Source: Flavipsychrobacter sp.
GTDB taxonomy: Bacteria > Bacteroidota > Bacteroidia > Chitinophagales > Chitinophagaceae
NCBI GenBank assembly: GCA_016786615.1
Contig: JAEUVX010000002.1
Coordinates: 62,001 to 126,000 of the forward strand
Reading direction: 5' to 3'
Length of the DNA: 64,000 bases
Below, piece by piece: positions 15,017-27,547 of the stretch (position 1 is its first letter; every line of letters begins with the position of its first letter). The position numbers and the translations under genes are program-made. The notes below the pieces were generated by a model. The model had not been told where the DNA came from and searched no databases. It saw only the letters and a program-made list of their open reading frames with translations.

Positions 15017-15610
15017 TCAGTCAGAATTTTTAAGGAACCTGATAAACATTTCTGTAAAAACTGCAATTGCAGCAAAAACCTCTGAACAATCGGAAGACCG
15101 GAAATATAGAGGGCTTTTTAAATTATTTAAAAAAAGGACAGTGAAGTGATTAATCTTATCTTTATGTTTTTCGCTAAACTCGCCGCTATTTATACCATCT
15201 GAAATAATAATATTGATCATTTGATATTCACTAGCTTTATATTTTTCTTTCAATTGGCGCACAATTGGCATGTACGACCGAAAGTCAGAATCATCCTTTA
15301 GTATTTGCAAAAAGACATCCTTTTGATCTTCAATATGTGCGGTCACAAGGTGGGCTACAAGTTTTAGCTTGCTTTCTGACGTTGATAATAAGGCGATTTC
15401 CTTGTTAATCTGTTCAATCCAGGCTTGTCTTTCCCGGACAAGAACTGCTTCAATAATCTCTTCCTTCGTCGTAAAATAATAATAAAGGCTGCTTTTGCCT
15501 TTACCAACTGCTTTTGCGATGTCCTCTATGGTTGTTTTTGAAATGCCGTAATTTAGGAAAAGTTGTTTAGCTGCCAATATAATTTGCTGATAATTATCTC
15601 TTTTCGCCAT
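15017..15610 (-). CDS. TetR-family regulator at the end of the sphingolipid operon
   Basis: This 197-aa regulator has a clear TetR helix-turn-helix: IILAAKQLFLNYGISKTTIEDIAK and VGKGKSSLYYYFTTKEEI (about residues 10-51). It starts 2 bp after the AUR1-like gene, so it is most easily read as the last gene of the 13-gene lipid operon. The C-terminal half is a helical ligand domain of unknown specificity. A lipid-sensing role is attractive but is inferred from position only. It is a distant paralogue of the regulators at 14324 and 9536. Confidence 0.88.
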   Translation of the reverse strand: MAKRDNYQQIILAAKQLFLNYGISKTTIEDIAKAVGKGKSSLYYYFTTKEEIIEAVLVRERQAWIEQINKEIALLSTSESKLKLVAHLVTAHIEDQKDVFLQILKDDSDFRSYMPIVRQLKEKYKASEYQMINIIISDGINSGEFSEKHKDKINHFTVLFLNNLKSPLYFRSSDCSEVFAAIAVFTEMFIRFLKNSD

Positions 15611-15612
15611 AA

Positions 15613-16536
15613 TTAAGTATTGGTTGCAACTAACTTTGCAATAGTCCTTTTCACAACTGTAAATTTTAATAAAATATTAAAAAAGCCAATGCCAGCACCA
15701 GCACAAATAATCCCTGCGATTACATCAAGTAGATAATGGTGGCTGGTATAAATTGCAGCAAACCAAATACCCGCTGAAATAATCAGGAATATCAAATTTA
15801 CGTTTTTCAAACCAATCCTGATGCCGTAATAAAGTACCAGCAGTGGATAAGACGAATGTAAAGATGGCATTGCGGCAAATACATTGGAACTTTTAGCGTA
15901 TAATGCATCGAATACGTGAACGCCAAAAAAATGATCAAATCTTGCTAAGCCGGCAGTATTGCCCGGGGTACTAGCATAAAATGTAAACCCGTTTAGTTGT
16001 ACGTACCATGGCGGGGCTGCGGGATATAAATAATATACCAAAAAACCAATCAGGTTGGTGACAAGAAATGTAAGAGCAAAATGGTAGAATTCAACGGGCT
16101 TTTGGAAAAATAAGTACGCAGCAAAAATAAGAGGTACAGGAACCCACATGAGGTAAAAAAACCCAGAAATAATATCCAAAAATGAGTTTTGATATAAATG
16201 GCAGTATTCATTTGGAGTAAGAATGGTACCGTTAGCAGATATACCAAACAAACTTTTTTCCACACAGTAGAGGTCTGCTATATGAACGTTGCTAAAACTA
16301 TAATTTGGGTAGGCCTTCATGTAGTCGAAAATCACCCAATACAGGATGAAAATCGAAAAGCCTGATACAAATTTTCGGGTTTTAAAAGAGGCGAAATACA
16401 GGCTGTTTATAAGAACCGTCAAAAACAACTGTTCCGGTTTAAACCCAATAAGCAGATAAGACAGCGATAAATAGCTTATTGTCAAGGCAGCCATCGCAAC
16501 CAAATATTTAGGGCTATATAGACTCTTGGTTTTCAA
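15613..16536 (-). CDS. AUR1-like PAP2-superfamily protein, probable inositol phosphoceramide synthase
   Basis: This 307-aa multi-pass membrane protein has the AUR1-type PAP2 motifs YPAAPPWY (residues 171-178), MPSLHS (223-228) and HHYLLD (266-271), the last two carrying the catalytic histidines and aspartate. In fungi AUR1 moves phosphoinositol from phosphatidylinositol to ceramide. A homologous family is found in the inositol-lipid cluster of Bacteroides. Here it lies 1 bp after the desaturase gene and in one operon with ceramide and phosphatidylinositol genes. The start appears to be TTG at 16536; an ATG at 16494 is the alternative. A plain lipid phosphatase is less likely. Confidence 0.78.
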   Translation of the reverse strand: MKTKSLYSPKYLVAMAALTISYLSLSYLLIGFKPEQLFLTVLINSLYFASFKTRKFVSGFSIFILYWVIFDYMKAYPNYSFSNVHIADLYCVEKSLFGISANGTILTPNEYCHLYQNSFLDIISGFFYLMWVPVPLIFAAYLFFQKPVEFYHFALTFLVTNLIGFLVYYLYPAAPPWYVQLNGFTFYASTPGNTAGLARFDHFFGVHVFDALYAKSSNVFAAMPSLHSSYPLLVLYYGIRIGLKNVNLIFLIISAGIWFAAIYTSHHYLLDVIAGIICAGAGIGFFNILLKFTVVKRTIAKLVATNT

Positions 16537-16537
16537 T

Positions 16538-25142: not shown

Positions 25143-26263
25143 ACCAATGCTTTTTCGTAAATTCTATAAGTTTTATAGGGGACGGCATTTATGCTTGTCA
25201 GCGCCTTATTCATCAGGTAGTTGTCCTCTAAAATCCAAGAGGCCTCAGCCTTCGTTATTTTTTTATTCAGACAGTTTTGGATGATTCTTCCGTAAAGCAC
25301 AGTTTCAATTCCCAACTTTCTATAGCCTTCAAGGACACCCAATGCTAAGACACGTATACCATCAATTGATTTGCGGCGGGTCAGCAATTTAAAGAACCCG
25401 GTGGGAAGAAGCCTTCCTCTATCAATTGATCGAAGTACCTGATTTATATCAGGTATACAAAGGGAGAACCCAACTGCTTTGCCATTATGTTCAGCCAATA
25501 CGCAGAACTCTGGATCAAGAATTAGTTTCAGGTCTTTCGCCATGTGCTCAAACTCTTCAACTGTCATCGGCACGAACCCAAGATTTTTATCCCAGGCCTG
25601 ATTGTAAATAACCTGTAGTGATCGGACTTCCTCTCGGAAATTTTTTAACTCCACTTTTCTAAACACAATATCCTTATTTTTCAGCCTTTGCTCTAACACA
25701 GGCATTAACACAAGAGGTTTGTCGTTGTATAAAGCTGCATCAATATTGTATGCAATCAAATCTACCTTTTTGCTATAGCCAAACCGTTCCGTAATGGTAC
25801 TGTAGTATGGCTTGTTGTAAGGCATCATTACCACAGGTGGCTTCACAAACCCGTTAACCAGCATGCCGCAGGTTTCATTTGTAGAAAAATTCACCGGTCC
25901 TATGGAAGTACGTGCACCTTTGCCTGCGAGCCACTTTTCAGCACTGGTAAAAAGTGCGTCGGCTACCAGATGATCTTCCACTGTATCAAAAAAGCCAAAG
26001 AAACCATCATTCGCTTGATTGAACTGGTTATGATTTCTATTTAATATAGCCGCTATCCGCCCTCGTATTAAACCGTTTTGATATGCAAGGAACAATTGTG
26101 TTTGCGAATGATTGTGAAAAGGATGTTTCCCAGGAGTTAATAAATCACGTTGCGCGATAAATAACTCAGGCACATAGTTGTCATCGTATTTGTATAGTTC
26201 GTGAGGAAAATCAATGAACGCCTTAAGCATTTGTCGATTTGAAACCTGCCTTACTTGAATCAT
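25139..26263 (-). CDS. GNAT-like N-acyltransferase, probable bacterial ceramide synthase
   Basis: This 374-aa cytosolic protein belongs to the family of long GNAT-like proteins that includes Caulobacter bacterial ceramide synthase (bCerS), unrelated to eukaryotic ceramide synthases. Recognisable parts are [16 protein letters not shown] (about 19-34), [31 protein letters not shown], and the acyl-binding half with [20 protein letters not shown]. It would N-acylate 3-ketosphinganine. The gene overlaps serine palmitoyltransferase by 4 bp upstream and the reductase by 4 bp downstream, giving the three core ceramide enzymes in order. Confidence 0.82.
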
Positions 26264-27471
26264 GCTTTTCCGTTTAAGACTACTTTTTCGAAAAACAATG
26301 AATTATATGCCTTTGATAGCTTTTCAATTGCCTCTTCTATTTGACTAAAAGTATGAGAAGCCATCAATGAAAACCGAATAAGTGTATCTTCAGCGGGCAC
26401 GGCCGGAGCAACAACGGGATTTACAAAAACACCATTTTCCTGGAGCATTTTAGTAATAAGAAAAGTTTTTTCGTTGTCGCGTATATAAATAGGAATAATG
26501 GGTGTTCCGGTAGGGCCAATATCAAAACCTTCGCTTTTCAGAAGATTGCTAGCGTATTTGGTATTTTTCCAGAGATTTTCCAAATGTTCCGGTTCCTGCT
26601 GGATGATCTCCAGTGCTTTCAACACTGTTGCAACCGAAGCAGGGGTCATGCTTGCGCTAAAAATAAGTGCACGCGCATTGTGCTTGATGTACTCTATTGT
26701 CGCCTTGTCGGAGGCGATGAACCCACCCAATGAAGCAAAGGATTTGCTGAAAGTTCCCATTACTAAATCGACGTCACCTGACATTTGAAAATAATCTGCG
26801 GTGCCGGAACCTTTCTCACCTATTACTCCTAATCCGTGAGCATCGTCCACCATAATATTACAGCCGTATTTCTTAGCCAGTCCGACGATTGCAGGCAAAT
26901 TGGCAATATCTCCCTCCATACTGAAGACCCCGTCGGTAGCTATGAGCTTTACACTTTCTGCTGGTAGATTTTTTATTTTGTTTTCGAGATCGAGCATATC
27001 ATTATGCTTGTATTTCAAAACCTTGGCAAAAGAAAGTCTCGCCCCGTCTATGAGTGAGGCATGATCATATTCATCAAGAATAAGATAATCATTCCGGCCT
27101 ACGATTGAAGAAAGGACACCCAGATTCACCTGAAAACCTGTGCTGAATACTACTGCATCATCTTTTTTAACATACTGAGCCAGCCGCTCTTCTAATTCTA
27201 AATGGATATCCAATGTCCCATTTAAAAACCTGGAACCTGCACATCCCGTTCCATATTTCTCAATTGCTGCATTCGCAGCTTCTTTCAATCTAATATCGTT
27301 TGTTAATCCCAGGTAGGAATTTGATCCAAACATCAATGTCTGAAGCCCATTGATATATACTATGGTATCCTGAGCCGAAGTAATTGGTCGGAAATAAGGA
27401 TAATATCCCGCATCTCTCGCTTCCTGTGCAGCTTTGTAAAGCAATACCTTACGTTGCAGGTTATTTGACAT
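26260..27471 (-). CDS. spt: serine palmitoyltransferase
   Basis: This 403-aa PLP enzyme of the alpha-oxoamine synthase family condenses serine with a long-chain acyl thioester to 3-ketosphinganine. Visible features are NSYLGL (51-56), the PLP-stacking His137 (DEYDHASL), VDDAHG (208-213) and the Schiff-base Lys243 in [13 protein letters not shown]. Sister enzymes make 2-amino-3-ketobutyrate or 8-amino-7-oxononanoate, but the two following genes are ceramide enzymes. It is the first gene of the lipid operon and has a canonical Bacteroidota promoter just upstream. Confidence 0.88.
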
Positions 27472-27517
27472 TAAAAAAGATCGTTTTTTGAATTTTAGAA
27501 CAGAATTGATTAAAGTT

Positions 27518-27547
27518 CAAAATTAGAGAAAAAAATCAAAATGCAAA
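27518..27547 (-). promoter_or_regulatory. promoter of the sphingolipid operon
   Basis: On the minus strand TTTG (27547-27544), 18 nt, then TAATTTTG (27525-27518) matches the Bacteroidota consensus closely. The start would lie near 27511, about 40 bp before the serine palmitoyltransferase ATG. A weak inverted repeat (TTTT/GAAC at 27493-27501 and GTTC/AAAA at 27515-27522) overlaps the -7 box and could be an operator. Confidence 0.6.

Follow-up and report, generated by a model that had tools for sequence, protein, structure and literature searches.

We analysed a window of 64,000 nucleotides from Flavipsychrobacter sp. (GenBank assembly GCA_016786615.1, contig JAEUVX010000002.1, positions 62,001 to 126,000), in which thirteen open reading frames (ORFs) follow one another in an uninterrupted series on the minus strand, from position 27471 down to 15017. 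Their predicted products belong to ceramide synthesis, inositol lipid synthesis and the tailoring of sphingolipid chains, which makes the run a candidate operon for inositol phosphoceramide (IPC). The features are, from 5' to 3':

27518–27547, minus strand: possible promoter of a −33/−7 consensus that we take to be a Bacteroidota promoter type; sequence match only, string TTTG...TAATTTTG
26260–27471, minus strand: serine palmitoyltransferase (SPT), first step; NCBIfam SerpalmtaseCFB 690.1 bits against a cut-off of 640, PDB SPT 8guh/3a2b E 1.4e-171
25139–26263, minus strand: ceramide synthase candidate (CerS; bCerS-like GNAT, YghO-like), named from the GNAT Pfam match of its relatives and from neighbourhoods
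24159–25142, minus strand: CerR-like SDR reductase; Epimerase PF01370 8.9e-35, by profile a generic SDR/epimerase
22824–24149, minus strand: myo-inositol-phosphate synthase (MIPS); PF07994/PF01658 (NAD_binding_5, Inos-1-P_synth) over cut-off, PDB inositol-3-phosphate synthase 7nwr, which we take to be the BT_1526 structure, E 1.7e-166
22366–22827, minus strand: PgpA-like phosphatase, probably acting on phosphatidylinositol phosphate (PIP), counterpart of BT_1525; PF04608 7.3e-38
21992–22399, minus strand: GtrA-family membrane protein, counterpart of BT_1524; PF04138 1.2e-19
19450–22011, minus strand: DUF5686 protein with a CarboxypepD_reg domain, the domain type described for BT_1527; PF18939 1e-51, PF13715 6.2e-19
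18727–19431, minus strand: PIP synthase (PIPS), BT_1523 type; NCBIfam PIPSynBT1523 393.5 bits against a cut-off of 350, PDB PIPS 6wm5/6h53 3.4e-22
18180–18722, minus strand: DUF4833 protein; PF16117 1e-46
17565–18176, minus strand: SCS7/FA2H-type fatty-acid 2-hydroxylase without a cytochrome b5 domain; PDB SCS7 4zr1 E 1.5e-29 over residues 13–200
16538–17545, minus strand: candidate DES1-type sphingolipid Delta4-desaturase; Lipid_DES PF08557 52.7 bits against 23, FA_desaturase PF00487 101.4 bits against 29.7
15613–16536, minus strand: AUR1-like IPC synthase, homologue of BT_1522; PDB AUR1 9vj3 E 3.6e-18, PAP2_3 over cut-off
15017–15610, minus strand: TetR-family regulator, last in the run; PF00440 5.8e-14, best NCBIfam match a FadR model at 46.9 bits, under its cut-off of 200

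A preliminary description of this DNA had counted thirteen minus-strand genes with gaps of at most 19 bp and several overlaps. This is exact: from 5' to 3' the junctions measure −4, −4, 9, −4, −34, −20, 18, 4, 3, 19, 1 and 2 bp. It had also placed a canonical promoter at 27518–27547, where the string is indeed present and the evidence for a promoter is a match to the consensus. The pattern occurs twice on its own 18.5-kb strand and three times on the opposite one, and mononucleotide shuffles give 1.17 per strand; sigma-70-like sites were not enriched across the region (32 found, 38.0 expected). A match to the promoter pattern precedes TetR in 4 of 21 relatives, in 3 of which TetR is the leading gene of the cluster or precedes it. 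The G+C content of the run (0.411) equals that of the window (0.414), and on this ground we set aside a recent insertion from a foreign source.

Most of the families named in the preliminary description were recovered by Pfam, NCBIfam or PDB sequence matches, CerS and CerR being the two soft spots. Among the inositol genes, the PIP synthase carries the catalytic motif D-x2-DG-x2-AR...G-x3-D-x3-D, and H227, H266, H267 and D271 of the AUR1-like protein, which presumably play the catalytic His/His/Asp role, are invariant in 10 sequences. This part of the run resembles the BT_1522–1526 cluster of Bacteroides thetaiotaomicron which, together with BT_1527, shares with the window the AUR1-like synthase, PIPS, GtrA, a PgpA-type phosphatase, MIPS and a nearby CarboxypepD_reg protein (PMC9246714, PMC8791184). 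Knock-outs in B. thetaiotaomicron established roles in phosphatidylinositol (PI) or IPC synthesis for BT_1522, 1523, 1525 and 1526 (PMC9246714); those of BT1522, 1523 and 1526 were found again by knock-out in a second study, in which BT1525 mutants were not obtained (PMC8791184). According to these papers, BT_1526 yields inositol phosphate, BT_1523 yields PIP, BT_1525 removes the phosphate and BT_1522 yields phosphoinositol dihydroceramide, while deletion of BT_1524 (GtrA) gave no phenotype on thin-layer chromatography in one study and lower IPC in the other (PMC9246714, PMC8791184). CarboxypepD_reg genes resembling BT_1527 are described near such inositol lipid clusters, and S. spiritivorum is described as making ceramide phosphoryl-myo-inositol (PMC9246714). 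The Bacteroides arrangement differs from that of the window in two respects. By their locus numbers, SPT (BT_0870) and a reported 3-ketosphinganine reductase (BT_0972) lie elsewhere (PMC9278070), and the cluster genes, as described there, include no 2-hydroxylase or desaturase (PMC9246714, PMC8791184); the word stem 'desatur' is absent from PMC9246714.

The ceramide genes stand at the 5' end of the run. The SPT passes the curated model of the Bacteroidota ('CFB') and fails those named after alpha- and betaproteobacteria; it is the single SPT over cut-off in the whole genome. At default limits the CerS candidate finds no match in Pfam, NCBIfam or the PDB; when the limit is relaxed, it matches GNAT Acetyltransf_1 with E 0.0026, under the Pfam cut-off. 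The same family is matched by all 30 aligned CerS members at E<=1 (best 2.4e-10), and a profile of the protein gave weak GNAT matches in the PDB, from E 0.011, where a single-sequence search gave none. CerS homologues occur in 45 records of a plasmid collection, with 34–40% identity among the 20 matches listed. Five of their neighbourhoods were opened: SPT-like and reductase genes lie within 6 kb in three of them, and the Rubrobacter neighbourhood has the order SPT-like, CerS, reductase. The Diaphorobacter and Roseomonas homologues are adjoined by LptF/G-type permeases and CDP-alcohol transferases, with no SPT-like or reductase gene within 6 kb and no gene for an acyl carrier protein or acyl-AMP ligase alongside. 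The identities of CerS and CerR, which we treat as candidates, rest mainly on synteny, more than on profiles.

In Caulobacter, SPT and bCerS are reported to be cytoplasmic and CerR periplasmic, with acylation preceding reduction (PMC11087976), while a different reductase, BT_0972, is reported for Bacteroides (PMC9278070). The window resembles the Caulobacter-type set of spt, cerS and cerR (with acpR and aasR) in holding an SPT, a candidate GNAT-type N-acyltransferase and an SDR reductase together, a likeness by family and neighbourhood. In contrast, its SPT scores 309.5 bits against a cut-off of 670 on SerpalmtaseAlphaP, and family searches found no acyl carrier protein or acyl ligase among the thirteen genes. 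According to PMC11324152, cerS always belongs to another operon, from which the overlapping spt, cerS and cerR of the window differ. The other two of the three plasmid-collection neighbourhoods with SPT-like and reductase genes, those of Klebsiella (L167) and E. coli (L171), have a CerS-like gene, yghO in the E. coli record, close to genes of SPT-like and epimerase type and to genes for an acyl carrier protein and a fatty acyl-AMP ligase; these neighbourhoods resemble the proteobacterial ceramide gene set named in that paper.

Two further genes encode putative tailoring enzymes of kinds best known from eukaryotes. IPC itself is best known from fungi and plants, the kinds of chain-modifying enzymes found here from fungi and animals, and 4-ene, 2-hydroxy sphingolipids are usually thought of as eukaryotic. 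The hydroxylase is the only PF04116 gene found in the genome. It matches the catalytic part of SCS7 over its full length, in a comparison that covered SCS7, but with 203 residues it covers only the C-terminal part of the yeast protein: no N-terminal cytochrome b5 domain was found, PF04116 being its sole domain, and the match begins at residue 183 of the full chain 4zr0. The desaturase has in common with eukaryotic DES1 the Lipid_DES and FA_desaturase domains and three His boxes, HECAH, HLKHH and HNEHH, whose histidines are invariant in 42 sequences; this is a likeness of domains and motifs. It has no relative among solved structures (best PDB match E 0.13). Unlike DES1 and SCS7/FA2H of eukaryotes, the enzymes of the window are bacterial and operon-encoded. 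Membrane oxygenases of both families need oxygen, which fits aerobic bacteria and the absence of these genes from the described gut cluster. Flectobacillus major and Sphingobacterium reportedly contain hydroxylated sphingolipids, as described by Batrakov and by Naka. A d18:1 ceramide is reported in Sphingobacterium detergens. Among the titles and abstract openings listed by a literature search, with most subscription journals outside its reach, none concerned a DES1-type gene of bacteria or, beyond Bacteroides, this operon, and neither DUF4833 nor DUF5686 was named in any paper it reached.

In order to follow the gene order in other Bacteroidota, we used an alignment of ten AUR1-like proteins to scan titled genome contigs. 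At least 436 relatives were found, and the best 80 loci were kept; the counts per gene are lower bounds, because many loci may be truncated on the 5' side by the 10-kb flank or by a contig end. On the same strand around AUR1 lie PIPS in 79 of these loci, DUF5686 in 70, DUF4833 in 66, PgpA in 63, GtrA in 61, MIPS in 58, the hydroxylase in 56, SPT in 52, CerS and CerR in 49 each, TetR in 16 and the desaturase in none. The relative order of the operon genes that a locus holds is kept in all 80 (TetR unscored; a few loci hold just two), SPT, CerS and CerR occur together in 45, and all eleven genes besides the desaturase and TetR fall within the 10-kb flank in 26. In view of this conserved order we rejected the idea of a chance neighbourhood. 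Titles among the loci include Pedobacter, Mucilaginibacter, Chitinophaga, Spirosoma, Pontibacter, Dyadobacter, Niastella, Rufibacter and Sediminibacterium, genera that are mostly soil and water dwellers; two metagenome bins titled Desulfobacterales (L122) and Williamsia (L124) may be mislabelled. The preliminary description had suggested looking for this gene order elsewhere, and had seen in the run the inositol-lipid genes of Bacteroides, a Spt/CerS/CerR module and two tailoring enzymes brought together. The profile and structure-sequence searches and the conserved synteny bear this out, and the joint ceramide-inositol operon turns out to be common. It is thus not special to the genome of the window; what is special is the desaturase inside it.

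Within the genus of the window, one congeneric locus (L078) has the identical thirteen genes in identical order and another (L077), cut by the contig end, agrees with it; in a third (L079) the desaturase comes just after TetR and there is no hydroxylase, while a fourth (L080) has neither. AUR1 and an SPT over cut-off are found in the same 5 of 15 genomes (that of the window, G397, G404, G405 and G406) and both are absent from the other ten, which hold only lower-scoring SPT relatives; one of these ten, G395, is 84% complete. The operon therefore seems to decide whether a species of this genus makes sphingolipid, and sphingolipid synthesis seems to have been gained or lost as a block within the genus.

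The desaturase is also encoded outside the operon. Lipid_DES was found in 40 of 395 genomes of a sample of the phylum and in none of 14 control genomes, and no plasmid copy was found at E<=1e-10. A place with the operon was seen for it in the window's genus alone: 4 of the 15 genomes carry the desaturase, all four inside the operon or directly beside it; a fifth match (E 9.6e-4, 24% identity) was left out of this count. Among the 98 genomes of the class, the desaturase occurs in 11 of 14 with AUR1 and in 4 of 84 without (Fisher's test, 4e-9, kinship ignored); counted by genus, the figures are 8 of 10 with AUR1 and 3 of 43 without (7e-6). It accompanies an SPT over cut-off in 9 of 18 genomes, as against 6 of 80 without one (9e-5). 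Outside the fetched operon locus it was found in 24 of 50 other operon genomes, with 9/9 in Mucilaginibacter, 4/4 in Spirosoma, 2/2 each in Chitinophaga and Flavisolibacter and 1/14 in Pedobacter; the phylum sample shares at least two genomes with these 50, and the tallies by genus were made by hand. Chitinophaga japonensis and Mucilaginibacter rigui (L153, L150) are among the carriers, while P. zeae (L095) has the operon and lacks the desaturase. A tree built from 42 desaturases groups the operon copies with one sequence of the same family (support 100/99), the four as one clade being weakly supported (59/7). An attempt to deduce the substrate from the neighbours of the desaturase failed: in the 38 loci fetched outside the genus, compared without recourse to family libraries, none of the neighbour families within 4.5 kb was common to more than seven. 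Our reading is that the desaturase is an old enzyme of the Bacteroidota that in most cases works from elsewhere in the genome, and that it entered the operon in this genus.

Taken together, gene identity by homology, conserved linkage and co-occurrence suggest that the run is one operon making a 2-hydroxylated, Delta4-unsaturated IPC, to which we give a probability of roughly 0.75. Every reaction in the following scheme, the order of its steps and the roles of GtrA, DUF5686, DUF4833 and TetR are what we infer for this organism. SPT would join serine with an acyl thioester; the GNAT-type CerS would N-acylate the product, which CerR would then reduce to give dihydroceramide. In parallel, MIPS would convert glucose 6-phosphate to inositol phosphate, from which, with CDP-diacylglycerol, the BT_1523-type synthase would form PIP, and the PgpA-like phosphatase would turn PIP into PI. 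The AUR1-like enzyme would transfer phosphoinositol from PI to the ceramide. The N-acyl chain would receive a 2-hydroxy group from the SCS7-type enzyme, and the long-chain base a 4,5-trans double bond from the DES1-type enzyme. DUF4833 would probably be a partner domain of PIP synthase on the periplasmic side, and GtrA and DUF5686 would probably take part in lipid handling or export.

Several observations weigh against this reading. The promoter match is not conserved, a strict match standing upstream of SPT in only 2 of the 27 relatives with 200 bp of upstream sequence, and we rejected a conserved Bacteroidota promoter at this place. CerR, PgpA and GtrA fall below every NCBIfam cut-off, and no NCBIfam model that was matched fits MIPS; the AUR1-like protein reaches 299.2 bits (E 3.5e-89) against the cut-off of 480 of the NCBIfam model PhinosDhcerSyn, and is thus called a homologue and not an equivalog. 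The operon surrounds the desaturase in none of the 38 loci fetched outside the genus (39 were found); in just two of them the operon queries matched, weakly and in part, L047 having a DUF5686-like stretch and L048 one of TetR type. The desaturase is lacking from 26 of the 50 other operon genomes, including 13 of the 14 of Pedobacter. Five of the 11 genomes with both AUR1 and the desaturase belong to one genus, and the statistics ignore kinship; another genus (g8) has the two genes in different genomes, so that co-occurrence in the same genome holds for 7 of 10 genera. In the phylum sample an AUR1 gene is absent (E<=1e-20) from 29 of the 40 desaturase genomes, and an SPT exceeds the curated cut-off in 9 of them, all in the class of the window. 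The desaturase therefore also serves elsewhere or with other SPTs.

This last result bears on the alternative that survives best, although we consider it unlikely: the operon would make IPC, but the DES1-type enzyme would be a C4-hydroxylase (DES2-like) giving phytosphingosine-type bases, or would use another lipid. The Lipid_DES domain and the His boxes are common to DES1 and DES2, and a Pfam match cannot separate the two; the desaturase genomes that lack AUR1 also speak for a different substrate. The tie between desaturase and AUR1 in the class and the site of the gene inside the operon favour a sphingolipid substrate, and are silent on desaturation as against hydroxylation. We find it rather improbable that the thirteen genes form two or more adjacent transcription units, for the ceramide, inositol and tailoring steps. 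The promoter evidence for a single unit is weak, and the hydroxylase, the desaturase and TetR are absent or moved in relatives, but junctions of −34 to 19 bp and the conserved order argue for one unit, in which promoters may still lie within coding sequence. Least probable is a main product other than IPC, either PI itself or a different phosphosphingolipid, for which the AUR1-like protein would draw on another head-group donor: its score below the equivalog cut-off would allow this, but MIPS, PIPS and PgpA belong to this run, with relative order kept in all 80 loci, and the protein matches both fungal AUR1 and the synthase model.

The operon also offers some insight into DUF4833. PIPS and DUF4833, which are separate ORFs in the window (18180–19431), form a single fused ORF in 39 of the 80 titled loci and likewise in four loci of the window's family (L080, L081, L083 and L084). 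A count by motif and length over 90 AUR1 loci gave 43 ORFs of fused size and 42 of single size, the individual ORFs being unchecked. A hydrophobic stretch links both halves in the three fusions examined, and the N-terminus of the window's DUF4833 protein looks by eye like a signal peptide, although a simple hydropathy scan did not flag it. These features suggest, tentatively, a periplasmic domain tied to PIP synthase; no PDB relative of DUF4833 was found. For DUF5686, a role in lipid export to the outer membrane is a guess.

In the 16 clusters that have a same-strand TetR gene, it lies at one end or the other. A second TetR gene, 60 bp downstream of the lipid operon, heads an efflux-type set on the minus strand (10260–14956) with an outer-membrane efflux protein, an HlyD-like protein and a long transporter-looking ORF. 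Upstream, the adjoining plus-strand genes at 27714–32202 encode MarR, HlyD-like, MFS and outer-membrane efflux proteins; with a G+C content of 0.50 against 0.41 around it, this efflux operon looks like an acquisition from elsewhere.

The evidence points to a conserved operon type for IPC in environmental Bacteroidota. Among the loci examined, its fullest version is that of the window's genus, with a DES1-type desaturase inside. A bolder version, which we hold to be about evenly balanced, is that the product is a true sphingosine-type (4-ene), 2-hydroxylated IPC; that the DES1-family desaturase, an old Bacteroidota gene usually found apart, was here captured by the operon; that DUF4833 is an unrecognised periplasmic partner of PIP synthase; and that one portable unit covers the entire pathway leading to a decorated IPC, starting at serine and glucose 6-phosphate. 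The DUF4833–PIPS fusion gives this domain of unknown function a functional link and a first point of access. The genes of the operon form a compact set, suited to transfer into a laboratory host in which the order of the ceramide steps could be tested and, if our reading is true, the desaturase and the hydroxylase would place 4-ene, 2-hydroxy sphingolipids in many environmental bacteria.

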